Positions 2-56,972 of a stretch of DNA of 56,972 bases are shown one piece after another. A program made the position numbers and the translations under genes. This DNA comes from a virus: IMG/VR virus record IMGVR_UViG_3300048837_000350, positions 1 through 56,972 of that record. One strand, 5' to 3'. Below the pieces are notes generated by a model. That model ran no database searches. It was not told the origin of the DNA and saw only the letters and a list, made by a program, of their open reading frames with translations. Every line of letters begins with the position of its first letter. The stretch's first letter is position 1.

Positions 2-100
2 GTGGAGTTTGATGCTGATAAGACTCCGATGCTTGGCAATCCAGATACGATTGATCCCGCCGTGGTGCGTTTGATTCGCTCGCGTCGTTGGAGGAACTAG
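2..100 (+). CDS. C-terminal end of distal tail protein (continues from window end)
   Basis: The frame is open from the first bases to a TAG at 98-100 and encodes 32 residues ending in IRSRRWRN. It has no start of its own. It is in phase with the truncated gene at 55695-56972 if the shared TGTG at the two window ends is counted once, which gives the junction MFMC-VEFDADKT. I therefore read it as the tail end of the Cys-rich distal tail protein. Its stop overlaps the GTG of the next gene (TAGTG), the usual translational coupling in this genome. If the window is not circular, it is the end of some other upstream tail gene. Confidence 0.7.
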   Translation: MEFDADKTPMLGNPDTIDPAVVRLIRSRRWRN

Positions 101-1161
101 TGAGCGAGTGCGATCCACGGTATGACGTTACGTACCAGATTGGTGGTTCGTCTACGGTCGCTGCTCCGCAAGGCTTGCGTTCGATTAGTTGGGAGCGCAG
201 GCTAGACGATATTGGTACTGCACGATTCGTGTACGTGAAGAGTGGCCAGACTGATCTGTGTTGTCAGAACATGGGGAAGATTACTCCGTGGCGTGACGCG
301 GTGAACATCGTTCGCGATGGCAGAGTCGTCTGGTTCGGAACAGTCATGGATGTTGAAGAGTCTCGTGACGAGATTGTGATCAATGCTCGCGATCCACTCG
401 TGTGGTTAACGCGTCGTATTGTGCGCTCTAGCTTGCAGTTCACGCAGACTGATCTCACTGATATTGCGCGTCGCATCATTGATGACGTCTTGTCGTACGC
501 GAATCCGTGGGCACCAATCGGATTCAATGTTCAATATCAGCCTAGTGGAGTGTTGAGCGATCTATTGGTTGAGGCTGATAGGTTCCCTCGATACGCGTGG
601 AACGTGTTGACGGAGAAGTTGGCGTCAGGCTTGGATGTCGTGACTGTTGGCAAGACTGCATACTTTGGATCTGCTCCGCCAGCGGCTACTGTTCGTTTGA
701 GCACGAGTGATTTTGAGGGTGATGTTTCTATTCGTAAGGATGGGAACATCTACGCGAATAAGGTGTTTGTTAACGCGAATGATGATGTGCGCGGGGAGTA
801 TCCTACCGCTCCTGCGTCTACTCCATTCTTGGTTGAGAAGATCATTAGCGATGCGCAGATTCAGACGCAGGAAGCTGCGGAGAATCATGCTAAGGCTATG
901 TGGGCGTATAGTGGGCAGCAGGGAGTGCCTGTGATTGTGCAGGCGTCTGACAGCTTGACGCTGAATCCGAATACGCAGATCACGTTGCCGCAGCTAGTTC
1001 CGGGCGCTCAAGTATTGTTGAACGCTGATAACTATTGTTTTGGTCGTTTTCAGGCGTTTAGGCTTGGTCGTGTTGAGGTTGACATCGAGGCGAATATCGA
1101 GAAGATCAGGATATCCCTGCAGCCTGTCGGGCCTCAAGCATTATCAGACGTCAGTGAGTAG
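100..1161 (+). CDS. Gp37-like minor tail protein (tail hub / Tal-like)
   Basis: This 353-residue protein resembles the 'Siphovirus ReqiPepy6 Gp37-like' family, which forms the tail-tip hub next to the distal tail protein. It opens with a beta-rich WERRLDDIGTARF segment and a VVWFGTVMDVEE segment, typical of hub domain 1, and has a long beta-rich C-terminal half (SLTLNPNTQITLPQLVPG, then VDIEANIEKIRISLQPV). I prefer the GTG at 100 because GGAGG lies five bases upstream and it overlaps the previous stop; an in-frame TTG at 88 is the alternative. The gene follows the distal tail gene as expected. Its last 18 bases overlap a converging minus-strand gene. Confidence 0.65.
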   Translation: MSECDPRYDVTYQIGGSSTVAAPQGLRSISWERRLDDIGTARFVYVKSGQTDLCCQNMGKITPWRDAVNIVRDGRVVWFGTVMDVEESRDEIVINARDPLVWLTRRIVRSSLQFTQTDLTDIARRIIDDVLSYANPWAPIGFNVQYQPSGVLSDLLVEADRFPRYAWNVLTEKLASGLDVVTVGKTAYFGSAPPAATVRLSTSDFEGDVSIRKDGNIYANKVFVNANDDVRGEYPTAPASTPFLVEKIISDAQIQTQEAAENHAKAMWAYSGQQGVPVIVQASDSLTLNPNTQITLPQLVPGAQVLLNADNYCFGRFQAFRLGRVEVDIEANIEKIRISLQPVGPQALSDVSE

Positions 1162-1833
1162 GTAATCGTACTCTCCATTCTTTAGGAAATACCCGGTGTA
1201 GAAGCTACTGCTGATTGCCACTCCAAACTCTGTCGTGCCCCTTCTTGCGAAGAGTGATTTTTTGCACGACTTAAAGTTTATTCCTCCACCACACTCGCCA
1301 AGTTTCTTTGATTGCTCAATCACATCCCTGCTTCTGCAGGCTGTTATTGATTTAGCGTAGTAGTCCCATAGTGACTTGTCTAGCGAGAACATTCCACACC
1401 AATATATCCTTCGAGGAGTGACGATATATCCATCATTGTCGATAGATATGCCCGCATCAAACCTTGTTGATGACACGACTTTTCTTCGTCCTTTTCTCAG
1501 TGAGCAAACGACAGTTGATTTCTTCGACATGCAGCCTTTCTGCTTTTTTCTGCGATGCTTTACCGATCTTGCGTTCAGCCACTTGCACTCGGAGTCGTCT
1601 CCAAGCCTCATCGTTGTGATTGCTGATCCCCTTTTGGATGAACACATATTTGGCTGGATGTATTTTTGTGATGGGAAGTTTTGAGAGAATGTTTCGGGCT
1701 GCATTTCAGGATCGGTTACCCGCATGTCGGAATCGACGTAAAAACCATTCACCAAGCTTTCCCCAGCATGAGCGCTTGACGCTATCACTAGCGTTAGAGT
1801 GATAACAATCAATACTTGCAATAGTAGTTTCAT
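1144..1833 (-). CDS. Secreted, basic, Cys-containing protein of unknown function
   Basis: I do not recognise the family. Starting at the ATG at 1833 the protein has 229 residues and a clear Sec signal peptide: MKLLLQ, a hydrophobic stretch VLIVITLTLVIAS, then SAHA-GE as a plausible cleavage site. The mature part carries about eight cysteines and a lysine/arginine-rich stretch (KHRRKKQKGCMSKKS), so it is probably exported and could form disulfides. An alternative ATG at 1845 adds four residues. It is the only minus-strand gene in the surrounding tail region and has its own promoter-like sequence, which suggests an independently expressed accessory gene (moron). A role in superinfection exclusion or surface modification is possible but unproven. 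Confidence 0.7.
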   Translation of the reverse strand: MKLLLQVLIVITLTLVIASSAHAGESLVNGFYVDSDMRVTDPEMQPETFSQNFPSQKYIQPNMCSSKRGSAITTMRLGDDSECKWLNARSVKHRRKKQKGCMSKKSTVVCSLRKGRRKVVSSTRFDAGISIDNDGYIVTPRRIYWCGMFSLDKSLWDYYAKSITACRSRDVIEQSKKLGECGGGINFKSCKKSLFARRGTTEFGVAISSSFYTGYFLKNGEYDYLLTDV

Positions 1834-1866
1834 GATATGCCCCATTTGTTCTAGCCCTTACATGTC

Positions 1867-1894
1867 ATGATAGCGCGTGATTACTCTCGCGCAA
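1867..1894 (-). promoter_or_regulatory. Promoter-like sequence for the secreted-protein gene
   Basis: On the minus strand TTGCGC (1889-1894) is followed after 16 bases by TATCAT (1867-1872), a reasonable -35/-10 pair. It lies about 20-35 bases upstream of the start codon of the secreted protein, which supports autonomous transcription of that gene. Confidence 0.5.
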
Positions 1895-1904
1895 GGGGTA
1901 TAAT

Positions 1905-2031
1905 CATGGTTACGAATGGCTCGTCCCGAGGGTTTCCATATTTACATCGGCGTTGCGAATAACCTTTCGTACATCTGACCTACCGAGTTGTAGGAACAGG
2001 ACATGCGCCCTCGGTTCACGCCGGGGGCGCT
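1905..2031 (+). ncRNA. Possible short structured transcript between a TATAAT box and a terminator
   Basis: No plausible reading frame covers this stretch on the plus strand. It starts just after a perfect TATAAT (1899-1904; no good -35 seen) and ends at a strong hairpin (2005-2030). Between them are two small hairpins: CTCG-TCC-CGAG near 1920 and CCTAC-CGAGTT-GTAGG near 1978-1993. This would give an RNA of roughly 125 bases. It may equally be only a leader or spacer. Confidence 0.25.
2005..2031 (+). terminator. Terminator hairpin ahead of tail-tip operon
   Basis: GCGCCCTCGG (2005-2014) pairs with CCGGGGGCGC (2021-2030) around a six-base loop, with one G-T pair. No long T run follows. The late promoter-like element begins 12 bases downstream. 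Confidence 0.6.
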
Positions 2032-2042
2032 ATGCGTTTCGC

Positions 2043-2051
2043 GGCATAATA
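2043..2051 (+). promoter_or_regulatory. Late promoter-like element GGCATAATA
   Basis: One of nine copies of GGCAYMATA found ahead of late plus-strand genes. The CATAAT core ends eight bases before the GTG at 2059 and there is no Shine-Dalgarno sequence, so the message would be essentially leaderless. Confidence 0.55.
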
Positions 2052-2058
2052 CGCGCCA

Positions 2059-2247
2059 GTGGAAAGATCACAACCAGATAGACGAATCGAAACCACGATT
2101 AACGACATACTGAAGCGTCTTCGTGTGCTTGAGGAAGTATCAACCAGTCGCGTACTGCCGCCCAACTACGGGTTCCGATTGAACTCGGGTGGGCAACTTG
2201 TGATCTTCAACCGAGCCACTGGCGCAGAGTCATCTGGCATCGTCTAG
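2059..2247 (+). CDS. Small protein with N-terminal coiled coil, tail-tip operon
   Basis: This 62-residue protein starts at a GTG that directly follows a late promoter-like element, with no ribosome binding site. Residues 8-28 (RIETTINDILKRLRVLEEVS) look like a short coiled coil. The C-terminal part (GFRLNSGGQLVIFNRATG) resembles short beta repeats at fibre or tail-tip junctions. It opens the tail-tip gene run, so a small structural or adaptor role is likely. I cannot name the family. Confidence 0.55.
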   Translation: MERSQPDRRIETTINDILKRLRVLEEVSTSRVLPPNYGFRLNSGGQLVIFNRATGAESSGIV

Positions 2248-2259
2248 GAGGACGACATA

Positions 2260-2484
2260 GTGAGTGAAGATACTGTAGAAGAGAATACTGAAGCATTGAA
2301 GACCGTGAAGCCTCGCAAGACGCCGATCACCCCAGAGCCTGTGAAGACTATTAAGGTTGAGGCTGTTCAGAGCTTTGGCTCTGCTGAGACTGGAGATATT
2401 CGCAGGGGAGAGCAGGCTGTATTGACTCGATCTAAGACCGTGACTTCTCTTGTTAATGCCGGGTATTTGCTAGAGGTTAAGTAA
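2260..2484 (+). CDS. Small Lys/Glu-rich protein, tail-tip operon
   Basis: The gene encodes 74 residues from a GTG, with AGGAGG eight bases upstream. The first 35 residues are charged, proline-containing and probably disordered (KTVKPRKTPITPEPVKTIK). The remainder, with GDIRRGEQAVLTRSKT and LVNAGYLLEV, resembles the short 'head fibre/Ig-adjacent' proteins often found beside phage decoration or tail-tip genes. No specific function can be assigned. Confidence 0.55.
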   Translation: MSEDTVEENTEALKTVKPRKTPITPEPVKTIKVEAVQSFGSAETGDIRRGEQAVLTRSKTVTSLVNAGYLLEVK

Positions 2485-2485
2485 C

Positions 2486-2833
2486 TTGGCTTGCTCGTCG
2501 TGTGGTCAGAGGGCAAGGATCGCAGGCTTGTCTGCCGCGAATCCTCTTACTATCGGCAATGCCGATGATTCTGCCGCGCTTCCATATCGCGTTGCGGAGC
2601 AGGGTGCTGCTGGCAGTTTGCCTGTTGGTACTAGGGTGTGGATCACTGGTGATGGTGTTGCGGAGGCAATCGAGAAGGGATTGTTCGCCGATAGTCCTCC
2701 TATGACGTATTCCCATGATGGCAATCAGCCGAATACGATCTACTGGGTAGGGACTAGGGGCTTCACGAATCTTGCTCGAGCGGAAGCTGTTAGCGCTAAG
2801 ACTGGCATTGAGATTAGGACGGAGTCTAGGTAA
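2486..2833 (+). CDS. Small CxxC protein, putative tail-tip component
   Basis: The 115-residue product begins with MACSSCGQRARI, a knuckle-like CSSC motif. The middle region (YRVAEQGAAGSLPVGTRVWITGDG) looks beta-rich. The start is a TTG with GAGG nine bases upstream. Its stop overlaps the next start (TAATG), so it is translated with the tail-tip proteins. Structural role inferred from context; family not recognised. Confidence 0.6.
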   Translation: MACSSCGQRARIAGLSAANPLTIGNADDSAALPYRVAEQGAAGSLPVGTRVWITGDGVAEAIEKGLFADSPPMTYSHDGNQPNTIYWVGTRGFTNLARAEAVSAKTGIEIRTESR

Positions 2834-3627
2834 TGGCTATACCAGCTTGCGTAGATCCTAATGCCTGTGGCACTAATGTCACGTTCAATACGAGCGGTAT
2901 TCGTGTTGACGTTGAGCTTGATAACTCTGGCTGTGGCATAGACCTTAGCTGTAGCGCTGCTGGCGTTCGCGCTGATGTGAGGGCTGCTACTCCAGCAATA
3001 CTTGCTAATCAGGGTGGCATAGGATGTGATGCTGGAACACGCTCAATGTATGTTCGGAGGTATGGAAGCTCTGCGGCATCGAGTCCGGGTAACTGCTACG
3101 ACCCAATAAATGTTGATCCGTCAGGCGAGCTTTGGACGCCCAAGACATTGGTGAGGAATGATGGGTTGGGTGATATGACACCCATCAATGTGCCCGCCAC
3201 CGGAGATCCCGTGCAGGTTGTTAACCTAGGATCAATAGATAATGATACGTCGTGCCCCGAGACTTGGCTTATCAAGGCTAAGTGTTCACTTAATGTTGAG
3301 CGTCAGTCTGTTGCTAACCCATGCGTTCCGCCAGAGGCAGACTTTGTTGGACTTGCATTTGCTTGTGTAGAAATGCGATTGCGCGAGACTGTTACCGTAA
3401 ACGACTTTACCACTAGGATAACAGCAGCTTGGGATGCTAGCGCTGGCAACCCATCAGTATCTCAGGATGTATGGATATCTACTGTTATCAACGTGCCAGC
3501 CGGTGGCGTTAGGACTTTTCAGGCGAGGTTCGACACCATAGCGAGATCAGGAATAAGAACTTGCCTTGATCCCATTACGAATAATGTTTCCATTCAGGGA
3601 CTGCAAGTAATCAGGATGTTCAACTAA
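2833..3627 (+). CDS. Cys-rich minor tail / receptor-binding candidate 1
   Basis: This 264-residue protein has an N-terminal region with paired cysteines (ACVDPNACG, SGCGIDLSC) and a beta-rich C-terminal half ending in VSIQGLQVIRMFN. The SGCGIDL motif recurs in the next protein, and the GELWTPKT/GNLWVPPT segments match, so the two share an N-terminal module. The C-terminal halves differ, as is common for proteins that bind the host surface. Start and stop codons overlap those of both neighbours. Receptor binding is inferred from position and modular divergence; a purely structural tail-tip role is also possible. Confidence 0.6.
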   Translation: MAIPACVDPNACGTNVTFNTSGIRVDVELDNSGCGIDLSCSAAGVRADVRAATPAILANQGGIGCDAGTRSMYVRRYGSSAASSPGNCYDPINVDPSGELWTPKTLVRNDGLGDMTPINVPATGDPVQVVNLGSIDNDTSCPETWLIKAKCSLNVERQSVANPCVPPEADFVGLAFACVEMRLRETVTVNDFTTRITAAWDASAGNPSVSQDVWISTVINVPAGGVRTFQARFDTIARSGIRTCLDPITNNVSIQGLQVIRMFN

Positions 3628-4355
3628 TGGCCGATCTCCTACTCTGTCTCGACTCTGGGTGTGGCATTGACCTCACTAATAACAGTGGTCGCCTTGGCGC
3701 TGCGATACGCGCAGACTCTTCACGCGCACTGAAGTGTGACGGCACTACGCGTAACCTCTATGTTGGTACGCGTAACTATGCTGGGCAAGTCAATCCCAAC
3801 GCGGAACAGGATTGTAGCAATCAGCTAAGGATTGATGGTAGTGGAAATCTTTGGGTTCCTCCTACCATCGGCGCTTGTGATATCACTCTTCCGGACACGA
3901 GCTTCCTTGACTTGCCGGGTCCGGGGTCAGATGATCGCGACGCTGATTATGACGTGTATACGAACACGTCTGGTTGTACCCTGATGCTTCTATGGAAGTA
4001 CGATGTTCAAGTCAACGTACAGGCCGCTGCCGGGTTCACGACTGGTGATGTATTGCATTGGTCTGGTCTTATCTCTGTAGAGAATATGGGTGGCGGCGTT
4101 GGTACGTACCCTGCGAGTATCCGCAGGACTGTCCAAGCTCCGTTTAGCAGTGGCGGTATTGGCGCTGGAGACTCGTATCGTGAGTGGTTCCAGATAAGCG
4201 GATTCCATATTTTGAACGCTGGCCAGACTATGCGGCATAGGCGTGTCGTGTATGGAGCGAGCAAGAACGCTCAGGTTGCCGCTGCTACGAGCGCTGATAA
4301 CGGTATCGCTTTCACGAATGGCGGCGTTATGGTTTCATACGGAATACAGGTATAG
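3627..4355 (+). CDS. Cys-rich minor tail / receptor-binding candidate 2
   Basis: This 242-residue protein starts with a short Cys segment (MADLLLCLDSGCGIDL), followed by a linker region with C36, C62 and C84. The C-terminal half is a probable beta-sandwich (SYREWFQISGFHILNAGQ, then GIAFTNGGVMVSYGIQV). Its N-terminal module is related to that of the preceding protein. ATG at 3627 overlaps the previous TAA. The likely position is the tail tip or fibre; the exact role is unknown. Confidence 0.6.
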   Translation: MADLLLCLDSGCGIDLTNNSGRLGAAIRADSSRALKCDGTTRNLYVGTRNYAGQVNPNAEQDCSNQLRIDGSGNLWVPPTIGACDITLPDTSFLDLPGPGSDDRDADYDVYTNTSGCTLMLLWKYDVQVNVQAAAGFTTGDVLHWSGLISVENMGGGVGTYPASIRRTVQAPFSSGGIGAGDSYREWFQISGFHILNAGQTMRHRRVVYGASKNAQVAAATSADNGIAFTNGGVMVSYGIQV

Positions 4356-4358
4356 CTT

Positions 4359-5726
4359 GTGGCTTGTGGATGCCCCTCAGAGCAGTGTACTTGCTTCCTA
4401 AACGGTGACGCGTTCACTGGAGGGAATGGTAGCGCTGGGACTCCATACACTGTAGAGAACCTTCCGTTCGCTCCGACGAGTCCCACGAATAGCGTAACGA
4501 TCACACCGGGTGGAGTTAAGAATCACACACCGGCTATTGACGTGGCACTCTCGAGTGATCCTACGAACGCTATTCAGTATGACGCTGATGGCTTGCTAGT
4601 TGATCCATGCGACATGGTTGACATTGTTGCTACGGAGAACGCACTAACGTGTGGTCCTGATGGACTCTTGGTTGATCGCTGCGATATCTTGACGCCTACG
4701 ACGCAGGCTGTGGGAGACTTGCTGATTGCTGGTCCTGATTGCACTGCACAGGTGATGGCTGATCCTGCTGCTGGTGATCAGATCATTGCTGCGCTTGGTG
4801 GTCAGTGGGGTCAGCGTCCGTTGCTGTCTGCTGATGGTGGTAACGCTTCGAGTATTGGTAGTGATGGTGGTATCTTTAGCCCATCGTTTGGCGCTGCTGC
4901 GCCTACGTTTGGTGTTCAGTACTTTAGCGCTACCGATACAATCGTTGCAGCCGATGGGCCGATTGTTGTCTACAATGGTGTTGGAGGCCACGACCTGACT
5001 CTCCCTCCTGCGGTTATCGGCCTATCGTTCGATGTGTACCACGAGGGTATTGCTGGGCCAGTAAACATACTGTCTGATGCTGGCGATTCCATACTGGTTG
5101 AGGGATATGTTTTTGGACAGACTGATTTTGGTATTCCGTCCGGAGTCAGCTATCGTCTTATAGCTATCTCTGCCACTGAGTGGCGTGCTGAATATATGGG
5201 CGAGAGGTATACGCTCGGCGTCAGCCAGCTTCCTACTAACGCTTTGCCGGGTTGCAAGGTCAGGCTTATCTGGGCTGCTGGCGGCAGTGGCGCTGTTATG
5301 GGTACTTTTGAAACTAAGGATTATGGAAACACGTGGATGCACACTGGAGGCCCGGCTGCGTGGGATGCTGATGGCTCTACGGAAGCTTCCCTGTCTAGTG
5401 TTTATGTCAACCTTGGAGCTAATAATCCAGAGATTGATGTGTTCGCTCCCGGATCTTTCCACTGCATAGTCCAAGCCCAGTCTTCAAATAACACTATTCA
5501 AGGATTCACATTTTCGGCCATTGATCCTCCTTCTGCTGCCGCCAATGATCTGTATGAGGCTTTGTTCTGTTCGACCATAGCTAATGTAGCTGGCCATTCT
5601 AGGTCTGGTCGTATCATTGTTGACGCTGCTGCGGGGATCTATCGCATGGCTAATCGCGTGAACTTCGGTACAGGATCTTGGACTGATCGTCGCATAGAGA
5701 TTATCCCAGAATACATAGAGAGCTAG
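4359..5726 (+). CDS. Minor tail / fibre protein with MACGCP N-terminus, paralogue A
   Basis: This 455-residue protein begins with MACGCPSEQCTC from a GTG. Roughly residues 1-175 align almost without gaps with the next gene: ENLPFAPTSPTNS against ENTPFAPTSPLNS, TPGGVKNH in both, VGDLLIAGPDCT against VGDLVIAGPDCT, and GQWGQRPL in both. Residues 60-110 contain a repeated 'ADGLLVDPCD' unit (three copies, including GPDGLLVDRCD). Beyond residue 180 the protein is unrelated to its paralogue and beta-rich. The shared anchor with private C-terminal domains fits tail fibres or receptor-binding proteins mounted on a common attachment module. Confidence 0.65.
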   Translation: MACGCPSEQCTCFLNGDAFTGGNGSAGTPYTVENLPFAPTSPTNSVTITPGGVKNHTPAIDVALSSDPTNAIQYDADGLLVDPCDMVDIVATENALTCGPDGLLVDRCDILTPTTQAVGDLLIAGPDCTAQVMADPAAGDQIIAALGGQWGQRPLLSADGGNASSIGSDGGIFSPSFGAAAPTFGVQYFSATDTIVAADGPIVVYNGVGGHDLTLPPAVIGLSFDVYHEGIAGPVNILSDAGDSILVEGYVFGQTDFGIPSGVSYRLIAISATEWRAEYMGERYTLGVSQLPTNALPGCKVRLIWAAGGSGAVMGTFETKDYGNTWMHTGGPAAWDADGSTEASLSSVYVNLGANNPEIDVFAPGSFHCIVQAQSSNNTIQGFTFSAIDPPSAAANDLYEALFCSTIANVAGHSRSGRIIVDAAAGIYRMANRVNFGTGSWTDRRIEIIPEYIES

Positions 5727-5732
5727 GTAGCT

Positions 5733-6914
5733 ATGGCTTGCGGATGCCCAGCAGATCAATGTACATGCGTCATGAGTGGCGATGCCTACACGGGCGGGTC
5801 TGGTAACGCGTCAGACCCATTCGTGGTCGAGAACACTCCGTTCGCTCCGACCAGTCCACTCAACTCGATACAGTTCACTCCGGGTGGCGTTAAGAACCAT
5901 AGTCCCGGTATTGATGTTCAGCTTTCTGCAGAGCCGAATAATGGTTTGAGCTATGAGGCTGATGGACTCATGGTTGATCCCTGCGATCTGATTAGTGCTG
6001 ATGTTGATAATAAGCTGACGTGTGTTGCTGATGGCTTGAAGGTTGATGCGTGTGACATTGTCACTGCTACGCAGCAGGCTGTTGGTGATCTTGTTATTGC
6101 CGGGCCTGATTGTACGACTCAGTTGATGGCTGATCCGACTGACATCAATCAGATCATTGGTGCAGAGTCTGGGCAGTGGGGTCAGCGCCCGCTGGTTAGT
6201 AGCGATGCTGGCAACGACTTGACTGTCGGTACTGATGGTGGAGTATTTGGCGACTTTGGCACTATTGTTCTTGATGAGATTCAGCGCTGCGATATTTTTG
6301 ATGTAGCCACGACGCAGAACTCCGGGAACATCTTTATTCAGGGTGGCTTAGATTGTCGCCCAGAGCTACTGCGCGATCCGGCAGTATGCGAGATCATTGG
6401 AAACGCTGCCGGTAATGCTGGGTGGATTACTCCAACTGGAGCAGCGGTTCTTCGTCAAAACGCGCAAACCTATGGGCCATTCAATGTTGCCGGTCCCGCG
6501 TCCACATCAGGTCCGATTGTAGCTTGGACCATCACCAATACGAGGGACTGCCCAGTATTAGTTGTTCACGATCACATTTACGAGGAATCAATAGCGATCA
6601 CGGCTGCTGGCACGCTAAGGGTTGATACTACTAACAACTACCAGCTTCAGGCAGATAGGAATCAGGCTGGCGGGGTTCAGGCCATGGCTACCGTTGACAC
6701 TCGAGGCTTAAGCACGTACTCGTATGATGCTGATACAGCCCTTAATAAAACGATATTTAACACAGGATTTCAGAAGTATGTTCATCGGCTTAATGCTGGC
6801 GACACAGTAACCATACAAATCGTTATTGGATTCTCGAACTTTGTCGGCAATACGGCGCAACTGATCACGTATGCAAAGCAGTTTGCCACCGTATACCCAC
6901 TCCTATCAGTGTAG
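5733..6914 (+). CDS. Minor tail / fibre protein with MACGCP N-terminus, paralogue B
   Basis: This 393-residue protein is a clear tandem paralogue of the preceding gene over its first 175 residues, including MACGCPADQCTC and repeated ADGLxVDxCD units. From about residue 180 it has an extra copy-like segment (ILDEIQRCDIFDVATTQNSGN, split by glycines) and then its own beta-rich C-terminal domain ending in QFATVYPLLSV. The ATG lies six bases after the previous stop. Duplication followed by replacement of the C-terminal domain would give two alternative or cooperating binding tips; this is inference. Confidence 0.65.
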   Translation: MACGCPADQCTCVMSGDAYTGGSGNASDPFVVENTPFAPTSPLNSIQFTPGGVKNHSPGIDVQLSAEPNNGLSYEADGLMVDPCDLISADVDNKLTCVADGLKVDACDIVTATQQAVGDLVIAGPDCTTQLMADPTDINQIIGAESGQWGQRPLVSSDAGNDLTVGTDGGVFGDFGTIVLDEIQRCDIFDVATTQNSGNIFIQGGLDCRPELLRDPAVCEIIGNAAGNAGWITPTGAAVLRQNAQTYGPFNVAGPASTSGPIVAWTITNTRDCPVLVVHDHIYEESIAITAAGTLRVDTTNNYQLQADRNQAGGVQAMATVDTRGLSTYSYDADTALNKTIFNTGFQKYVHRLNAGDTVTIQIVIGFSNFVGNTAQLITYAKQFATVYPLLSV

Positions 6915-6920
6915 GAAATC

Positions 6921-7166
6921 ATGACAGATCACTACTATGCAAACATCATGGGATTCCCAATATCTTCGAGCGTTGAGATTGATGATGACTTTAATACAGA
7001 GATCACAGAGTCAGAGTACAACAATCTCGTAGAGAATCCACCTCTTCTCGAGTCCACGCCACTCGACCCATCGCTCATTCCACCAGAGCTTACCCCACTC
7101 GAGAAGCTTGAATCTATTGGCCTGTCAGTCGAAGAGCTAAGGACGCTACTTAATGAAGATGCCTAA
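6921..7166 (+). CDS. Small acidic protein following the fibre genes
   Basis: The 81-residue product is acidic (IDDDFNTEITESEYNN) and ends with PLEKLESIGLSVEELRTLLNED. That short helical motif often ends phage tail-fibre accessory or assembly proteins. It has a good AGGAAA ribosome site and sits between the fibre genes and the holin. A chaperone or fibre accessory role is plausible but unproven. Confidence 0.6.
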   Translation: MTDHYYANIMGFPISSSVEIDDDFNTEITESEYNNLVENPPLLESTPLDPSLIPPELTPLEKLESIGLSVEELRTLLNEDA

Positions 7167-7374
7167 CATAACGCAATCACAAGCTGCTGCGCTATTACAA
7201 TCATTTACTGCTGTTGTAATAGCGTTCACCGCTGACATCACTGAGGAGCAGTCGATTGCTCTCCTAGGATTATCCGCAGTGATAGGCGGAATCCTGATGC
7301 ATAGTGACGCGAAGATTCGTAAGGCTCGGAATAAGCGATTGTCTGGGCAGAATACTACTCAGAACGACGAGTAG
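7153..7374 (+). CDS. Putative holin
   Basis: The 73-residue protein has two hydrophobic segments (around residues 10-27, LLQSFTAVVIAFTADI, and 33-48, IALLGLSAVIGGILM) and a strongly basic, polar tail (KIRKARNKRLSGQ). Its size, membrane topology and position immediately before an M15 endolysin fit a small holin that would permeabilise the inner membrane. It overlaps the preceding gene by 14 bases; a second ATG at 7159 is an alternative start. The family is not recognisable by motif alone. Confidence 0.6.
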   Translation: MKMPNITQSQAAALLQSFTAVVIAFTADITEEQSIALLGLSAVIGGILMHSDAKIRKARNKRLSGQNTTQNDE

Positions 7375-7383
7375 GATTCTCTC

Positions 7384-7845
7384 TTGGCGAAGTACGGTAA
7401 GAACGGTAAAGTCGGCCCTGTAGGACGTATAAGCTGGGCAGAGCTTGAGTGTACCGATGGTACCGATGTTCCACGCGCATACCGCGATGACGCTGTCGTA
7501 CTCGGCAAGGCACTCAATAAGGTGCGTAGCAAGATCGCGAAGCACTACAAGGTCAAGGATAGTGACGTAGTCGTCAAGATCAACTCTGGCTATCGCTCGC
7601 CACGATATAACCGTAAGATCGGTGGAGCTTCAAATAGTCAGCACTTGTATGCTCGAGCGGCTGATACGCAGTGGTATGTGAAGGGTAAGCGTCTAGGCAA
7701 TAACGCTGTCGCGAACTTCGCTGCTCAGGTGAAAGAGTTTAAGCGTGGAGGCATCGGCATCTACGATAAGAAGCATGGGAACTTTGTTCACCTAGACGTG
7801 CGTGGCGAGTACGGCAATCCCAGCGCACGATGGTATAACCAGTAG
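7384..7845 (+). CDS. Endolysin, peptidase M15A-like (peptidoglycan D,D/L,D-peptidase)
   Basis: The 153-residue protein is a single compact M15-type zinc peptidase domain. SGYRSPRYN is the typical entry motif. H87 and D94 (SQHLYARAADTQW) and H136 with D138 (NFVHLDVRG) supply the expected zinc ligands and catalytic region. Such enzymes cut the peptide cross-links of cell-wall peptidoglycan. No separate wall-binding domain is present. The start is a TTG with AGGAT seven bases upstream. It lies between two small membrane proteins, so 7.15-8.07 kb reads as a lysis cassette. A second lysin is encoded at 36967. Confidence 0.8.
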   Translation: MAKYGKNGKVGPVGRISWAELECTDGTDVPRAYRDDAVVLGKALNKVRSKIAKHYKVKDSDVVVKINSGYRSPRYNRKIGGASNSQHLYARAADTQWYVKGKRLGNNAVANFAAQVKEFKRGGIGIYDKKHGNFVHLDVRGEYGNPSARWYNQ

Positions 7846-7847
7846 CC

Positions 7848-8069
7848 ATGAATCCTCCCGCTCCCCACGAATCTGAGGATCTCGTCGCGTACCGTATTAA
7901 GGTTCTCGAGGATAATCATGCTGCTCTGGCGGAATCCTTGGATGGGTTGAATGATGGATTCCGCGAGTTTCGTGTCAAGGCTGAAACGTACGCTAAGGCC
8001 GCGTTGATAGTATTCGGCGTTGTACATCCAGTTCTAGTTGGAGTCGTCGTATATGGCCTTACACGATAA
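7848..8069 (+). CDS. Small coiled-coil membrane protein, lysis-associated (XhlA-like topology)
   Basis: The 73-residue protein has a helical, charged N-terminal part (residues 8-47, VLEDNHAALAESLDGLNDGF) and one C-terminal hydrophobic helix (ALIVFGVVHPVLVGVVVYGL). This arrangement resembles haemolysin XhlA-type accessory lysis proteins. It starts two bases after the endolysin stop, so a second holin or holin regulator is a reasonable inference. Confidence 0.55.
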   Translation: MNPPAPHESEDLVAYRIKVLEDNHAALAESLDGLNDGFREFRVKAETYAKAALIVFGVVHPVLVGVVVYGLTR

Positions 8070-8501: not shown

Positions 8502-9875
8502 ATGGATTCCCGAAAAGCGGGAGTAGCCTTGAGCGTACCCAACGAGCGAGACAGAGACACGTCCGTGGTTCTGGGAATCACGACGCAGGACGGTCGGAAG
8601 ATTCCGAGCGAAGCCATCGCGGAAGTACTCTCGACTCCGGACATGAGCCAGAGGAAAGCATCGGAGATTCTGGGTTGCTCGAGGAAGGCGATCAAGAACT
8701 GGATTAGGCGTGCTAATGGTGGGGTGCCCACGAATAGTGTGCCCACCGTGATAGCTCCGGAGCGTCCCGGATTCACTATTGATGGTGATAATGCAGTCCT
8801 TGTCAGTCCAAGCTCCGAGGAGCGTAAGCGCCTATTCACGAAGGAAGAGTTACGCGAAGAGTACGGATTCCCGGAAGAAGATTGGATCGAGACTCGCGCT
8901 GTTATCAGCCAGTATGGGAGTCCAGATAATCCTAGTGGCCAGATCAAAATGTGGCTTACGAAGCGCGTGGATATTGGGCAGATCGTTCCCGCACGCTTCC
9001 CCGAGTCGTATGTTGCGCCAAAGATCAATCGTGCGCTCACGAATAAGCCCATATTTGGGGTAGTCTGTGGCGACTCTCAGGTTCCACACAACGATCTCTG
9101 CATGGAGGACTGTCTCCTACAGTTAGTGGCGGAGCTACAGCCTGACATCCTTATTGATCTTGGTGATCAGGGTGACAATCCGACGATCTCGAGCTACTTG
9201 AAGAATCCTAAGTGGAACGCTGATTTTAACGAGTGTATACAGGCCACGACTAACCTGAACTATTATCGGCGTCGTGCTTGCGAGAGTATGGAAATGATTG
9301 TTCTCGCATCGAATCATGACACTGAGCGCGTGAAGAACTATGTCCTATCGAAAGCTCCAGACCTGTATGGCGTGCAGCGCGGCATGTTCCCCGGAGAGGA
9401 AGACCCAGAGAAGGTACTCACGTGGGGTTACCTCACGAAGATGGATCTACTGAATATCAAGCTCATTGGCGAGGATGGGGATTCGTATCAGCACGCGAAT
9501 CACATTATTTCGCAGGGCACTCCAGACTCTCCGGGCCTAGCCGTGGAGCATGGGAGTGTGACTGGTAAGAGTGCGATGTTGAAGAACATTGAGAACACGA
9601 ACTACTCCATGTTCTTCGGCCACACGCATCATGCTGGTATGGAAACGAAAACAGTGTATGACACTGATGGAAATCCACACTTCATCTACTCGTACAATAC
9701 TGGGACGATGGCGAAGCTGAAGGGTAGCCTTGGTTTCGCGAAGCGTGCGCAGTGGGTGAATACGTTTTGTACGTACCAGTTGTGGCCTGATGGACGGTTC
9801 ACTGTGGACTTTGCGAAGTATGAGAATGGTGAGTTGTTCTGGCGTGACAAGCGCTGGCGTAGCAACCTTTACTAA
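8502..9875 (+). CDS. HTH-metallophosphoesterase (calcineurin-like) fusion
   Basis: The 457-residue protein joins an N-terminal helix-turn-helix (about residues 35-70, MSQRKASEILGCSRKAIKNW) to a calcineurin-like metallophosphoesterase. The metal-site motifs appear in order as CGDSQVPH, LGDQGD, ASNHDTE and GHTHH. The usual GNHD is SNHD here. Family members hydrolyse phosphomonoesters or phosphodiesters, and an attached DNA-binding domain suggests a nucleic-acid substrate. A TTG at 8529 has a better ribosome site (GGGAG, five bases) than the ATG at 8502, so the protein may be nine residues shorter. It sits at the end of the rightward tail/lysis block, facing the minus-strand operon. Confidence 0.7.
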   Translation: MDSRKAGVALSVPNERDRDTSVVLGITTQDGRKIPSEAIAEVLSTPDMSQRKASEILGCSRKAIKNWIRRANGGVPTNSVPTVIAPERPGFTIDGDNAVLVSPSSEERKRLFTKEELREEYGFPEEDWIETRAVISQYGSPDNPSGQIKMWLTKRVDIGQIVPARFPESYVAPKINRALTNKPIFGVVCGDSQVPHNDLCMEDCLLQLVAELQPDILIDLGDQGDNPTISSYLKNPKWNADFNECIQATTNLNYYRRRACESMEMIVLASNHDTERVKNYVLSKAPDLYGVQRGMFPGEEDPEKVLTWGYLTKMDLLNIKLIGEDGDSYQHANHIISQGTPDSPGLAVEHGSVTGKSAMLKNIENTNYSMFFGHTHHAGMETKTVYDTDGNPHFIYSYNTGTMAKLKGSLGFAKRAQWVNTFCTYQLWPDGRFTVDFAKYENGELFWRDKRWRSNLY

Positions 9876-10194: not shown

Positions 10195-10385
10195 CACTTG
10201 ATACTCCACTTCTCTATCGTGTTCCCGGCGTGACGCCATAGTTCTTCGTTCTCTGGCGCTGGGCGCTGCGCGTACCACATGAGCGCGATGAGTCTACGTG
10301 TTCCTTGTAGTTCACGCTTGCGTTTGAGTTGTGACGATTCCAGTTGATCGAGATAGTCTCGACTGATTGTCACTAGCTCAGTCAT
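10194..10385 (-). CDS. Small helical hypothetical protein
   Basis: The 63-residue protein is basic and helical (YLDQLESSQLKRKRELQGT, then PENEELWRHAGNTIEKW). Its start overlaps the HNH stop (ATGA) and its stop overlaps the next start, so it is real by context. No recognisable family. Confidence 0.55.
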   Translation of the reverse strand: MTELVTISRDYLDQLESSQLKRKRELQGTRRLIALMWYAQRPAPENEELWRHAGNTIEKWSIK

Positions 10386-10963
10386 GGAACGACTACTCCA
10401 GATGAACGCCATTCATACGCGGTCATCTTTATGGTATTTTTACCATTGTCGTCAGACGATCTCCAAGCAGAAATAACATCTGATATTACCGTAAACTCGT
10501 CAGAGTCCCAGTGTGATCCTTTTCTGTTATTACACTTAAAGCAGCAGACAAGTACATTGTCCAGCGAGTACCCCTTGGTATTATCTCTCCTGTCCATATT
10601 GTATGGACCGGGTCGATATTCGTTCCAAGATACTTCCTCGCGGCAGTAGGCGCACATCTTAATCTGTGACAAGAAGACAAAGTCATCGAACGTCATGTCG
10701 ATTGGGACATCGCGACTGAATCGCTCGTTCGTTCTGCTGACACTTGATAAAAATCCATTCCACACAGTTCTCAGAGGATGCCTAGTCCTCTTCACGCACT
10801 TTACGCAATACCCAGTATGATTGCGTATTCCCCAATCATCTTTGGGCATTTCTTTACCACACGTAATACACTCAAAAATGTATATGCGCTTCTTATATTC
10901 ACCATTCCTATGAGGAATCATGCGTATCTCAACCCGCTTGGCATCGCGTATATCAAGAGCCAT
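10382..10963 (-). CDS. HNH endonuclease
   Basis: The protein has about 193 residues. The N-terminal half has a zinc knuckle (CITC followed by CVKC). The C-terminal half is an HNH/ββα-metal domain: CAYC, then MDRRDNTKGYSLDNVLVCC and CFKCNNRKG, with the second cysteine pair completing the structural zinc site. In place of DH the motif reads MDRRDN, the variant seen in many free-standing phage HNH nucleases. The ATG at 10963 has AAAGGG eight bases upstream and overlaps the thyX stop. It could be a homing endonuclease inserted behind thyX or a host-DNA nicking enzyme. Confidence 0.75.
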   Translation of the reverse strand: MALDIRDAKRVEIRMIPHRNGEYKKRIYIFECITCGKEMPKDDWGIRNHTGYCVKCVKRTRHPLRTVWNGFLSSVSRTNERFSRDVPIDMTFDDFVFLSQIKMCAYCREEVSWNEYRPGPYNMDRRDNTKGYSLDNVLVCCFKCNNRKGSHWDSDEFTVISDVISAWRSSDDNGKNTIKMTAYEWRSSGVVVP

Positions 10964-11573
10964 ACCCAAAACCCTTTAGTGATAGGTCAAAGTCTCCAGT
11001 AGCAATAACGGCTTCTAGCATTGATTGAGCAATGTCTCGTATTTCCTTTTGCGCATCACTCTTATTGCGTAGTCCTTGAAAGTGCATGAATGATCGGAAG
11101 TTGAATCCAACATCCATTGTCACCTGAGAGTTGTATGGAAGGTAGAATCTCGCAGACTCTTTGGCCCTCTTGCGATCCATTCCTCCAGCCACTAGTCTCT
11201 CAAGTGTTTCGTGGTATAGGCGGAAGGCATTGCTGGTAAAGGAATCGAGTAGCGACGCTTCATCCTCGCTCCAGTCATCTGGAATCATCCATTTATCTTC
11301 CGTATGCTCCTTATAGCGAGCAGACTCAGCATTGACATTGACGCCAATACGATGCTTGATTATGTGTATGTGCGAAGCAGTGTCACATGTGACTAGAAAA
11401 TGCAGAAATGATTTCTCGAACGGAGTGTGGTGTCCAGCCTTGGCGAGGTTATCAAGTAGGTTTCCCATGCGGGCCTTCTTGCTATCGGTGAGATCGCGCG
11501 ATGTTGACGTCCACGCTGATAGCGCGTGAGATTCATCACCTCCATAATGACCAATAAGCTCAACGCTATTCAT
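10953..11573 (-). CDS. thyX: Flavin-dependent thymidylate synthase
   Basis: This 206-residue protein matches ThyX in length and layout. It would convert dUMP to dTMP with FAD, NADPH and methylene-tetrahydrofolate, supplying thymidine for phage DNA. The signature reads K73-H74-R75 followed by N81-x-x-S84-x-R86-Y87, instead of the usual RHR-x7-S; it has K for the first R and one extra residue in the loop. HHTPFEKS (residues 48-55) and a late RFYLPYNSQVTMDVGFNFRSF segment are also typical of ThyX. ATG overlaps the upstream stop, with GGAGGG as ribosome site. It groups with other early nucleotide or DNA genes. Confidence 0.85.
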   Translation of the reverse strand: MNSVELIGHYGGDESHALSAWTSTSRDLTDSKKARMGNLLDNLAKAGHHTPFEKSFLHFLVTCDTASHIHIIKHRIGVNVNAESARYKEHTEDKWMIPDDWSEDEASLLDSFTSNAFRLYHETLERLVAGGMDRKRAKESARFYLPYNSQVTMDVGFNFRSFMHFQGLRNKSDAQKEIRDIAQSMLEAVIATGDFDLSLKGFGYGS

Positions 11574-53600: not shown

Positions 53601-55695
53601 GATGAGCGTTGGACAGCGCGACGCTTTGTATGCTACTCGCGATGCCGTGCTGAAGAAGCAGGAGGATACTCTTGCTAGGAGGGCTTCTACTCAGGTTGCT
53701 TCTATTCAGAAGCTATTTCAGGCCGGTGCTATCGGCCCGACCGAGGCTCGCCTGCGCTTGATTGAGTTGCAGAAGCTTTTGGATAAGGCTGGGCTTGGGG
53801 TTAAGATCCCGACGAAGCTTGATGAAGCTACGTTTATAGATACTAAGCGTAAGCTTGATGAGGTATCTAAGCCGCGTACGGCTACTCTTACCATCGTAGA
53901 GCGCATCCAGAGCGCCGGCAAGAGCATCCTAGACATATTCAAGGCTGGTGCTGCTGCGAAGCAGAAGAGCCAGCTAGAGGCCGCCATAGCTCTTGCGCAG
54001 GCTGAGACTACGAAACTACAGACAGCGCTTGGAGCTTTGAAGACTGCGATGCGTCGCCCTGCTGTTGAGGCTGTTAAGGGTCTAGTCGCTGTGCTGATGG
54101 ACGTTCCGCGCCAGTTGCGCATGGCGTTCAGCGTTATCTCCCCGCAGGTTGTCCAGCTTGGCGCTGGCGTCGGAAAGACTCTCGCCGCTGGCATGCGCTC
54201 TGAGATTCAAAAAGTATCCATGGCTGGCACCGAACTTGGCAAGGCTGCGATGGCTGGTCTTGGCGCTGGCCTATCGTCTGGATTCAATACGATTGTCAAG
54301 CCGATGCTCAAGGGATTCACCGAGGAGATCCCGAAGCTGAAGGGGCCAATAGCGTACGACGCCACACTCCTCCAGCCTGCTGGTACCGCAATCATGGGCG
54401 GCTTCGCCCGAGGACTCGAGTCTGGATTCGATAATGTTCGTAGCTGGCTAAAGGCTGTCGCTCCGGCTATTGAAGAGTCGGTGCCAGACAACCTCATGGT
54501 TGAGCGTACAGGAAAGTTCCTCGTTGATTGGCTCAGGAGCGGGAAGACGCTGAAGCCAGAGGATGCGTTTGGCGATCTCGTGCCGAAGGTTCCAGACTTC
54601 ATGGGTGGGGATATTGGGCCGATAGATGCGAGCCTAGGATTCCTACATCCAACAGCATCGCTGCGCGATACAACTGTGATGGCTCAAGCGCTCGCCAAGA
54701 TGTTCGGGCTAACAGTCACGGACATTAAGCGTCCGAGTGGCACAAAGACTGCTAGCGGAAATATCTCAGACCACAGTATGGGCTGGGCTGCTGACATTAG
54801 TGGTTCTATGTCGAACACTGATCGCATGGTTGCTGCGATCAAGGGACTCTTCCCGAGTGTCATCAAGCAGTTGATCTGGCGCAACAAGGATGTCAACCGT
54901 GGATTCTTCGTCGGCGACCATATGGATCACGCCCACCTAGCGTTCCGTCCAGCCGCTGGCTTTAGCTTGAATAGCGGAAAGCTCGGAGTTACTCCAGTCA
55001 TGCCCGGATCTGGCGGCAAGGCTGGTAGCTCATCGGTCATGCAGGCGATTGCCCGAGCGGCTGCCGCTACTGGTATGCCTGTCGCACTGATCAAGGCTAT
55101 CGCGAAGCAAGAGTCTGGCTTTAATCCTCGCGCTGGTTCTCCTGCTGGAGCGAAGGGCTTGATGCAGTTGATGCCGGGTACAGCTCGCGGTCTTGGCGTG
55201 CGCGATATCTATGATCCTTTCCAGAACGCTCTTGGTGGCGCTCGATACATCCGTAGCATGCTTAGTATGTTCAAGCGACTCGATTATGCACTCGCTGGAT
55301 ATAACGCTGGGCCGGGTGCTGTTCGCAAGTTTGGTGGCATCCCTCCGTATCGCGAGACTCAGAACTATGTTCGAGCAGTCATGCGTTACTTCCAGCAGTT
55401 CGGTGGAGCGTTCGGAGGATTCCGCGCACAGGGAGGCATGGTTTCGCCGGGTAGCGCGTATGTGGTTGGCGAGCGTGGTCGTGAGCTATTCGTTCCGGGT
55501 CAGCGCGGTAATGTGATCACGAACGCGAACCTTGAGCGCCTCATTAAGTTGATGGAGGAGCAGGAGCGTAAGGGCAAGAAGGGTGTGACGTACCAGAACA
55601 ATATGACGGTGCAGTCCAACTCGAGTGACCCACGTGTGGTTGCTAGCCTGATTGATTCGCATAATAGGTATTCGATGAGCAGGCTTAACCTCTAA
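50602..55695 (+). CDS. Tape measure protein with M15-like and lytic transglycosylase domains
   Basis: The 1697-residue protein sets tail length. After a coiled-coil N-terminus it has a tape-measure core (GSMRALAASGVDLEVALGNS), hydrophobic segments at about residues 715-735 and 775-795, and long coiled coils (850-1180). The C-terminal third carries two wall-degrading domains. One is M15-like, with SDHSMGWAADIS (H1391, D1398) and DHMDHAHLAF (H1443, H1445). The other is a lytic transglycosylase with KQESGFNPRAGSPAGAKGLM (E1504) and LAGYNAGPGAVRKFGG. It ends in VVGERGRELFVPGQRG, a typical tape-measure tail. It would help DNA entry by opening the cell wall. Confidence 0.9.
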   Translation: MAEKIGNVSVALIPEANTAQWKKEVQAAVNKVGPVTVEVLPDVSRPAMVKFRTVLQAKLDKMNFYVNVTPKISKAALRKTTRELNKYYKEKDNAPGVYLNPQFRMTDVRKSIVDLNKKLAAAGKPTIYIDVSTKEGLAARQAEVAAFQARTSAMQAATIERTKNRELNANRIVAANKIALLKLEQRERERISAIVNRGLDATGISRYEGAVLRSLKVLTKAWAVYSVSATAAVAGLSAYAIYSFAQLEDSANMASQVFANNIAGVSRLTADEFVKVNRDIRARVLVGAGQIARATAFDLEQAAGSMRALAASGVDLEVALGNSTDKIKGLGLVVAQFAQAAGIEDLELATDKLIAIQQQAAAAPAFTSVYKTQADQVQRVADLVILASNKALGNAQQLSEALANRVTGQLASMNRPLEEAVTLTAVLSQSGLLGKPGGEQASIIMRDLAIKAEKFREEFKALGVEVFDQNGNIRSATSLIDELSNSLGGMSDQERVAALASAGITLRSQGVFSRLIATSTAIRREQGMSLKDIENSLKRDAAGAVARQAEARLDTLSMQWQAFTESVKVTFALFGGRAGETIKDFLKEINGDLESGGDSPLFTALESQITRLSKRLDAFVKRAITVLKSDQFREFATDLAESLILASKSLLTFFQGFATGFTGVEVEGSDALKSIGDIIRSISERLPSLSRSVGEAFGKIARFISENRSLLASLAKAWLAIGAASFVVRRAIAPFVFIFNAVRSILAKFGGASGLLTKLGIGLKFVAQNFKFVSQWAAIIVAAISVVAGVIKGVFSEISKQKSEAGGFVRFWRMLKIVLDPINEAITWILKKLFNLGEFLGSGFVKVVSGALGLLADLFDVALQGLGGVFDAIGKLPKMEWAEKAAKSIDGLRRELNRAGDQSVVTADKVERSSKRIRKALDVQPVDIRKENSNLDKQISVIEKRLEAGNLSKQDIFALQQRLQEVALNEIKIYEKRDKRLEGLAKRRKDLLATVFADEKMSVGQRDALYATRDAVLKKQEDTLARRASTQVASIQKLFQAGAIGPTEARLRLIELQKLLDKAGLGVKIPTKLDEATFIDTKRKLDEVSKPRTATLTIVERIQSAGKSILDIFKAGAAAKQKSQLEAAIALAQAETTKLQTALGALKTAMRRPAVEAVKGLVAVLMDVPRQLRMAFSVISPQVVQLGAGVGKTLAAGMRSEIQKVSMAGTELGKAAMAGLGAGLSSGFNTIVKPMLKGFTEEIPKLKGPIAYDATLLQPAGTAIMGGFARGLESGFDNVRSWLKAVAPAIEESVPDNLMVERTGKFLVDWLRSGKTLKPEDAFGDLVPKVPDFMGGDIGPIDASLGFLHPTASLRDTTVMAQALAKMFGLTVTDIKRPSGTKTASGNISDHSMGWAADISGSMSNTDRMVAAIKGLFPSVIKQLIWRNKDVNRGFFVGDHMDHAHLAFRPAAGFSLNSGKLGVTPVMPGSGGKAGSSSVMQAIARAAAATGMPVALIKAIAKQESGFNPRAGSPAGAKGLMQLMPGTARGLGVRDIYDPFQNALGGARYIRSMLSMFKRLDYALAGYNAGPGAVRKFGGIPPYRETQNYVRAVMRYFQQFGGAFGGFRAQGGMVSPGSAYVVGERGRELFVPGQRGNVITNANLERLIKLMEEQERKGKKGVTYQNNMTVQSNSSDPRVVASLIDSHNRYSMSRLNL

Positions 55696-56972
55696 TGACT
55701 TTCACTCCCTCATACATGCAGTACGGATGCGTTAGCGTCGCGAACAATGCGAAGACGTACGCGTACTACAACTGGGCGTGTGAGAATGGGATGTTCAGTG
55801 ACCCCGGATGCTTCTTCCAGCTAGAGGACTGCTCGTGTCCTGATGATTTGATTTGCGAACCCGGCCCGTTCATTAGTCCTGTTGATGATAACGCGTGCTG
55901 GTACGATCCACTCGTCCCAGAGTCTGCTGATTTCCTTGGCGTGTACATCACTAAGGTGACTGGGATTCGTGACTCTACGTTCTCTCGCGAGGTTGTAGAC
56001 AGCGTGGGCGTCGGCAGCATCCTGCAGCAACCACGGTTGCGCGGGCGTGCGTTCGCGTATGAAGTGATGTTGATAGCGACGTCTTGCGCTGGTATGCAGT
56101 ATGGCTCTGAGTGGCTTAGGCGCACGCTGGAGGACACTCAGCAGTGTGGTGGCGATGGGTGTACGTCGTGTCAGGGTCGGGAAATGACTCTCCGCGTGTT
56201 CTGTCCGGAAGAGGGACAGCTTGATCGTGGGCTGCGTCAGTGGAATAGCGTCGGCCTAGTCGATGGCTTGGTAGAGATCGTTGACGAAGAGAATCGCAAC
56301 TGTTGCTGTACGGTGACGCGTTGGACGTTCACGATGCAGTCAGAGTCTCCATACTCGTATAGTGATACGGAGACTGAGTGCGAGGTGGAGGCCAGTGTCG
56401 CGCTCGACGGGTACTGCAACTTTGATTTCAGCGAGGGGATTTGTGATAACTGCATCACGATTCCATGCTCTGGGTCTTGCGAGAACTGTGGTGATGATCC
56501 GCTCTGTCAATGCTCGTTCATCTTCGAGTGTCCACCAGTACTGAATGATGATTGTGAAACGTGTGAGCCGTGGCGTATCATGCGCTCGTGCTGTTGTATC
56601 GAGGACTTGCCGAATGGTCACGATACTACGTTTACGATTGAGATTGATGGTGGGCGTGCAGCGCCGTATACAGACTTGTATGACTTGAAGGGATTACGCA
56701 ATGTGCGTATACGCTTCTGGGATAAGGTTGCCGCGTTCCCATGCCCTGAGACTCAGGAGGAAGTGGATACGTTCACGAGTACTCGAGAGCCTTGCTGGGA
56801 CTTGACGATTCCATACATCCCGTATGAAGGTACTGTTCGGTTGAATGGCAAGAGTGATCGCGTTGAGGTGATCTGCAATAAGACGTGTCAGTCATATGAT
56901 CGTCTTGTCGGCGCGGCTAATGGTAGCGTCTTCCCGCTCGTGACGAACTGTAGCGGCATGTTCATGTGTGTG
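55695..56972 (+). CDS. Distal tail protein, Cys-rich (truncated at window end)
   Basis: The frame is open for 426 codons and runs off the window; it is completed by the frame at 2-100, giving about 457 residues. It lies after the tape measure and before the Gp37-like hub, as a distal tail protein (Dit-like) does. Thirty-six cysteines occur in 426 residues, many paired (CSCPDD, NCCCTVT, CENCGDDPLCQC, SCCCIED), which is far above normal for a tail protein. TAATG overlap with the tape measure. It may use disulfides or metal ions for stability. Confidence 0.65.
   Translation, partial: MTFTPSYMQYGCVSVANNAKTYAYYNWACENGMFSDPGCFFQLEDCSCPDDLICEPGPFISPVDDNACWYDPLVPESADFLGVYITKVTGIRDSTFSREVVDSVGVGSILQQPRLRGRAFAYEVMLIATSCAGMQYGSEWLRRTLEDTQQCGGDGCTSCQGREMTLRVFCPEEGQLDRGLRQWNSVGLVDGLVEIVDEENRNCCCTVTRWTFTMQSESPYSYSDTETECEVEASVALDGYCNFDFSEGICDNCITIPCSGSCENCGDDPLCQCSFIFECPPVLNDDCETCEPWRIMRSCCCIEDLPNGHDTTFTIEIDGGRAAPYTDLYDLKGLRNVRIRFWDKVAAFPCPETQEEVDTFTSTREPCWDLTIPYIPYEGTVRLNGKSDRVEVICNKTCQSYDRLVGAANGSVFPLVTNCSGMFMCV

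Follow-up and report, generated by a model that had tools for sequence, protein, structure and literature searches.

The window, a 56,972-nucleotide DNA from the IMG/VR virus record IMGVR_UViG_3300048837_000350, carries four consecutive genes in its tail region, whose products are here called A, B, C and D (Table 1). The open reading frames (ORFs) lie where an earlier note, made from the sequence alone, had placed them. C and D share an N-terminal anchor, bear unrelated C-terminal heads and belong to a widespread family of proteins that occupies the same place in other actinobacteriophage genomes and carries diverse heads there. C and D are rather probably distal tail-tip proteins, either fibres or spikes, of an actinobacterial siphophage, in which exchangeable heads are mounted on a common anchor and four such proteins are displayed together. 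A motif of four N-terminal cysteines (Cys4) and the bead repeats behind it would attach the fibre, probably a trimer, to the hub of the baseplate, and the C-terminal heads would contact the cell surface. A and B, at the same place, would be a second pair built along similar lines. The tail-tip location, which the earlier note had proposed, is supported by the gene order.

A common anchor with unrelated heads in C and D

The local alignment of C and D reaches a score of 632, compared to a maximum of 68 in 200 shuffles, and their N-termini are 63% identical over 179 columns. The shared part of about 178 residues agrees with the roughly 175 residues first estimated. Identity per 20 aligned columns drops from 12 (from column 151) to 9 (161), 5 (171) and 3 (181); the similarity fades near residue 175. 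Eight cysteines are in register between the two proteins (A, B, C and D contain 11, 6, 11 and 12 cysteines, respectively). The anchor regions show a nucleotide identity of 66%, with nonsynonymous (dN) and synonymous (dS) divergences of 0.31 and 1.2 by NG86, the values of an old pair under purifying selection.

The earlier note described complete divergence behind the shared part. This holds for the heads, which have no sequence relation to each other (hhalign probability 0.1), but not for the segment directly behind the anchor, where D repeats the shared unit at about residues 182-231 (score 68, maximum 47 in 500 shuffles). No such extra copy is present in C (score 33 against a shuffled maximum of 49), and a comparison of the first with the second bead of C stays within the shuffled range. 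C and D display the pattern by which modular receptor-binding proteins are recognized, namely a conserved N-terminus followed by unrelated C-terminal parts.

A family of Cys4-anchored actinophage proteins

Searches with the window proteins themselves returned little. No close relative of the four proteins was confirmed when viral contigs were scanned with D, with B and with the C/D anchor and A/B pairs, and phage tblastn searches with C and with B gave no match. The downstream phosphoesterase as bait yielded no relative, and the phrog_837 protein as bait yielded only contig L003, which ends before the block. A two-row C/D anchor model found nothing in 396 Actinomycetota genomes, a negative that says little because the same model also missed G001, the genome of locus L230, which contains two family members. 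Relatives were reached via gene order, through proteins with a Cys4 start (e.g. MARCGC..C.C) at the same place in Woodruffvirus phages and in Rhodococcus phage Tonitrus. Loci L013-L224 were taken from two IMG/VR scans for the cysteine pattern, the first of which gave, among the matches listed, mostly unrelated proteins.

The family architecture consists of the Cys4 start (CGCxxxxCxC), a G-x-G...P..V stretch, bead repeats and an exchangeable head. An anchor profile built from 59 starts, with the window sequences excluded, recovers C (E 1.8e-6) and D (E 5.2e-6), both of which contain the Cys4 start and the G-x-G...P..V stretch. At E<1e-6 the profile collects at least 96 members in at least 81 other loci, at least 14 of which have two or three. 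Near-duplicate contigs were filtered out on exact string repeats alone; L192, L209 and L216 are a single case. Further members come from seven Streptomyces genome loci, five of which have two or three. Among the 88 loci, 58 extend at least 2.5 kb upstream, and a phrog_837-like protein lies on the same strand within 6 kb upstream in 56 of them, which include BabyGotBac and Mischief19, themselves fetched through their phrog_837 match. The two misses are L169 and L219, the latter with a phrog_837-like protein at 6.1 kb. C and D likewise lie downstream of phrog_837 and phrog_838 homologues.

Since loci were drawn from cysteine-pattern scans, the invariant cysteines in the family alignments are partly there by construction. 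Among the 32 members that were not chosen by the pattern (C and D included), found by a profile itself seeded from pattern matches, CxC..CxC is present in 24 and at least one CxC in all 32; six of the remaining eight contain CC..CxC as judged by eye. In 15 diverse members, Pfam and NCBIfam gave no match to the anchor, judged by description. No PHROG matched more than two of these 15, and phrog_863 covers BabyGotBac gp25 from residue 7.

Counting the window, 20 of the 88 loci that have usable starts contain two or more members. In the other 19 tandem loci, the anchors share 29-60% identity across some 80 residues, and each resembles anchors elsewhere more than its neighbour; L010 (one member) and L227 (one pair) are the exceptions. 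The C and D anchors are 65% identical in this comparison, and their best matches elsewhere reach 40% (C) and 39% (D), low values that may only reflect close relatives missing from the sequences compared. On these identities, the anchor seems to have been duplicated, or converted, specifically in this lineage, and its copies in C and D bear unrelated heads. The suggestion of duplication plus head exchange is borne out by this pair and by the different heads found on the common anchor in relatives. Tandem members with C-terminal scores below 50 occur in L017, L134, L159, L168, L169, L182, L192/L209/L216 and L217/L230, with the proviso that the cases L168, L169 and L217 include open-ended ORFs and that the C-terminal scores had no shuffled control of their own.

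Bead repeats and a possible socket

The bead of D aligns without gaps to residues 130-166 of the tailspike gp124 of phage Milano (8fqc) with a score of 60 (0 of 2000 shuffles), and the bead of C aligns to the tail-binding module of the same spike with a score of 52 (6 of 2000 shuffles). According to the accessible part of its description, this segment belongs to a trimeric tail-binding module of Milano, and Cys15 of an N-terminal arm forms the bond that links the spike with the sheath and the baseplate (PMC10811340). A bead profile made from relatives recognizes D at E 1e-6 and C at 7.7e-6, with 0.014 as the best value among 1000 shuffled sequences. Both proteins contain a bead of the Milano tail-binding type. 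Independently, the family profile met the two tailspikes in the PDB, 7-7-1 (9rkv) at E 0.01 and Milano at E 1.5. A PDB search with the D model, which had 8fqc_P1 as its top row at E 4.3, was not significant and was not used.

The likeness to Milano gp124 and 7-7-1 comprises the bead sequence and the presence of N-terminal cysteines, as far as the accessible text on these spikes goes (PMC10811340). These phages differ from the window in their contractile tail and Gram-negative host and may differ in their beta-helix body, with which the poor D model gives no usable comparison, and the Milano arm (Cys15, Cys24 and Cys26) scores below noise against the anchor profile; cysteines are present in both but arranged otherwise. 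It is conceivable, although a speculative idea drawn by analogy, that the four cysteines (CxC...CxC or CC...CxC) form a metal-bound or disulfide-locked plug that stays conserved among actinophages as the parts behind it are exchanged. The phrog_837/838 hub would then offer a shared socket for enzymes, lectins and adhesins, several at once, and cysteine chemistry might hold or release the tips at adsorption, comparable to the disulfides by which the Milano tail is held.

Heads of the family and of the window proteins

When complete nonredundant proteins of 170 residues or more were grouped by the sequence of their tails, the 76 proteins (72 from relatives and four from the window) gave 24 groups, in which the window proteins are singletons. 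Groups were formed by single-linkage BLAST (E at most 1e-4, at least 60 residues) after removal of open-ended ORFs and proteins shorter than 170 residues, a procedure that places beads-only proteins together with L017 and may divide the Gly-rich heads. Among the 15 diverse members, Pfam recognized one each with Collar, Polysacc_deac_1, CBM_4_9 and Gly_rich_2; the deacetylase-headed member, assigned by its sequence, is that of L159. Polysaccharide-deacetylase-like sequence follows a Cys4 start in L159 (6829-8148, minus strand) and in L166 (1256-2641), where a cell-surface enzyme would serve as tail-tip head. In L152 (1463-2856) and L206 (640-2015), 133-residue beads-only members are directly followed by a separate ORF starting with MA[QH]CGVPTAAWP; anchor and head are perhaps split into two genes there.

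A model of the commonest head, marked by NPDPC, was made for L158 from 24 rows. Block means of the predicted local distance difference test (pLDDT) are 79-97 from residue 141 on and poor (33-54) for residues 1-90, which include the Cys4 part. The modelled head is a jelly roll with TNF/C1q-like proteins, several lectins among them, as best structural matches: BxpB (Z 10.8, root-mean-square deviation (rmsd) 2.6 over 112 residues), PLTL lectin (Z 10.1, rmsd 2.8 over 117) and BC2L-C (Z 9.7, rmsd 3.3 over 117). Viral capsid jelly rolls appear in the same list with Z 7.4 to 8.0. The predicted fold is clear as a TNF/C1q-like jelly roll; function is not settled by fold.

This head provides the likeliest rival explanation, according to which the heads of A, B and D are strongly diverged copies of the relatives' jelly roll and only the head of C is really different. 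As seen by eye, the N..C(P) motif of the NPDPC head, with an xAGxT-like motif further on, recurs in each of A, B and D; the profile of that head ranks B 191st, D 298th, A 313th and C 1817th among 10,736 ORFs, and the hhalign alignment of B with D spans 113 columns. The E-values of 100 to 180 are, however, not significant, the hhalign probabilities to the NPDPC head (at most 2.1% for A and B, 0.5% for D) lie within the shuffled range, and the D model (alignment of 13 rows) is unusable for the head fold, with a mean pLDDT of 41 and a predicted template modelling score (pTM) of 0.23. Common descent of these three heads is possible but doubtful. No significant head homology was found among A-D or to heads of relatives; candidate matches of the C head to the L017 fibre domain (89 of 1000 shuffles) and to L188 (576 of 1000) were rejected.

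A and B as a second pair

A and B align over 134 columns with 31% identity (score 133, shuffled maximum 55), and the cysteine modules named in the earlier note, SGCGIDL and LWxP, are found in both. Its wider statement that all four proteins share anchors is half right: there are two pairs, but the relation of A/B to C/D is not detectable (scores of 48, 49, 38 and 63 against shuffled maxima of 70, 62, 71 and 65). There appear to be two anchor classes, not one. An internal repeat in A stays within the shuffled range. Comparisons with the starts of five Woodruffvirus gp24-type proteins were not used; they gave 47 to 243 of 1000 shuffles for A and, for B, 3, 6 and 9 of 1000 in three phages and 134 and 475 in two.

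A second and serious rival, suggested by analogy, takes the tandem proteins for paralogues that assemble into a single hetero-oligomeric baseplate part, in which the anchors serve as assembly interface and the heads are structural rather than receptor-binding. A heterotrimer of gp35, gp36 and gp37 is known in mycobacteriophage Mysterious, as reported in the accessible part of the source (PMC13252515), and within each pair (A/B and C/D) the genes sit side by side with little spacing. A single recognized member is nevertheless found in 66 of the 88 relative loci, though loci are often incomplete, deacetylase and collar heads would be odd for purely structural parts, and the tailspike met by the family profile is homotrimeric. 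This alternative is rated as unlikely.

Several observations weigh against C, D and their neighbours being tail tips with exchangeable heads. A and B are recognized neither by the anchor profile nor by the bead profile or the Milano bead, and share with the Cys4-anchored family only position and cysteine richness; for this reason a set of four tips with shared anchors is only half shown, and the placement of A and B in the same part of the virion is conditional. C and D slightly miss the 1e-6 cut used for the family count, and the window beads match the 7-7-1 bead more weakly (C 28 and D 29 of 2000 shuffles). The window heads have no assigned fold or homologue: PHROG and Pfam searches with A-D and PDB searches with C and D gave chance-level matches alone. 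Finally, head exchange is not the rule everywhere, because seven loci carry similar heads in tandem (scores of at least 187 in L010, L153, L156, L193, L227, L228 and L231); L225 is in between (74).

Genome context and joint display

The window is probably of an actinobacterial phage, as the 83 phage records matched by its phrog_837 tail protein all belong to actinobacterial phages. Contig L003 (about 8858-8917) joins the end of the window to its start with a 4-base overlap. The record therefore most likely represents a genome of some 56,968 bases that is either closed or circularly permuted, with a tail block that spans the ends of the record. This block runs from the tape measure through the phrog_838 and phrog_837 proteins, small ORFs, A, B, C, D and two small ORFs to an endolysin-like peptidase.

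Table 1. Features of the tail block and of proteins A-D (window positions)
Feature	Position	Strand	Basis or remark
Tape measure	50602-55695		Pfam
phrog_838 protein	55695..56972	+	immediately upstream of the phrog_837 gene; runs off record end
phrog_837 minor tail protein	88..1161	+	upstream neighbour conserved across the family
A, 264 aa, Cys-rich putative tail-tip protein	2833..3627	+	position in tail block
A, Cys module common with B	about 2923-3300
A, private C-terminal part	from about 3160
B, 242 aa, Cys-rich putative tail-tip protein	3627..4355	+
B, Cys module common with A	about 3651-4022
B, private C-terminal part	from about 3867
C, 455 aa, Cys4-anchored tail-tip family member	4359..5726	+	anchor profile; GTG start
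C, Cys4 motif, residues 3-12	4365..4394	+	CGCPSEQCTC
C, anchor common with D, residues 1-178	4359..4892	+	with bead repeats
C, private head, residues 179-455	4893..5723	+	no match
D, 393 aa, Cys4-anchored tail-tip family member	5733..6914	+	anchor profile
D, Cys4 motif, residues 3-12	5739..5768	+	CGCPADQCTC
D, anchor common with C, residues 1-177	5733..6263	+
D, bead, residues 45-81	5865..5975	+	ungapped alignment to Milano gp124 residues 130-166
D, extra copy of shared unit, about residues 182-231	6276..6425	+	absent from C
D, private head, about residues 232-393	6426..6911	+	no match
Endolysin-like peptidase	7384-7845

The earlier note spoke of alternative receptor-binding tips, and tandem paralogues with shared anchors and unrelated heads would fit a phage that expresses or incorporates one paralogue at a time, like switching tail-fibre cassettes. 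Yet the four genes form one same-strand block with a 1-nucleotide overlap between A and B followed by gaps of 3 and 6 nucleotides. The record contains no match to a reverse transcriptase (RVT_1, PF00078), the mark of a diversity-generating retroelement, or to a site-specific recombinase (Phage_integrase, PF00589; Resolvase, PF00239), though a host enzyme could still act. Among the inverted repeats near the genes, none is both long and well matched, the longest having arms of 27 nucleotides at 74%. Alternation is improbable on these grounds, although the tips may still compete post-translationally for one docking site. Because of this tight spacing and the missing recombinase and reverse transcriptase families, simultaneous display is preferred: production and display of all four proteins at once, not in alternation, is the most likely case and would be the simpler reading. 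An Rfam search of 1100-8000 gave no match, and promoter- and terminator-like sites are not more frequent than in shuffled sequences.

Inside the tail block, the minus strand contains a 233-residue ORF (1144-1845) with a hydrophobic start that resembles a signal peptide by eye and with no PHROG match; minus-strand genes near the equivalent place also occur in Woodruffvirus phages. Further downstream, 10382-12054 (minus strand), 13668-15029, 18210-18752 and 24601-25713 (minus strand) encode Endonuclease VII-like, thymidylate synthase, DnaB-like helicase, Erf-like annealing and sliding clamp proteins. The Erf-like annealing protein could promote mosaic exchange.

Comparison with known systems and significance

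The closest parallels to the tail tips proposed here come from Woodruffvirus phages of Streptomyces. BabyGotBac gp25, Xkcd426 gp31 and gp32, Mischief19 gp34 and phiSAJS1 gp32 follow phrog_838/837 homologues and contain a Cys4 start and a G-x-G...P stretch, and their heads vary between phages. They differ from the window proteins in that the likeness is confined to about the first 40 residues and the heads are Gly-rich or NPDPC jelly rolls. Xkcd426 has two copies in tandem which, unlike C and D, carry similar Gly-rich heads. Tonitrus gp49 combines a Cys4 start with the same gene order up to the lysis genes and is the best match of the C anchor outside the window (40%), but it is the one recognized copy in its genome and bears an unrelated head.

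Receptor-binding proteins with conserved anchors and swapped heads are well known. In Klebsiella phages, according to the accessible text, conserved N-termini are joined to swapped C-terminal parts and several such proteins occur per phage (PMC6872550). Their anchors are different, and they branch through a T4 gp10-like domain, for which Pfam gave no match in A-D, although a sequence search may miss such domains. No description of the present actinophage anchor was found by title or abstract opening in a literature search whose scope covered few subscription papers. The accessible part of the Woodruffvirus paper treats tail genes in general terms only (PMC11536984), and that of the report on mycobacteriophage Douge contains no parallel anchor (PMC13033339).

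The observation on the window is real and wider than first noted, and it is a variation on the known modular design of receptor-binding proteins. The Cys4 and bead anchor at a fixed place in the genome provides a sequence handle for likely receptor-binding proteins in actinobacteriophages, most of which are labelled hypothetical proteins in the records examined. Natural pairs, such as C and D or gp31 and gp32 of Xkcd426, make the functions of head and anchor separable experimentally. From their sequences, actinobacterial viruses appear to mix and match the parts with which they would contact their hosts.

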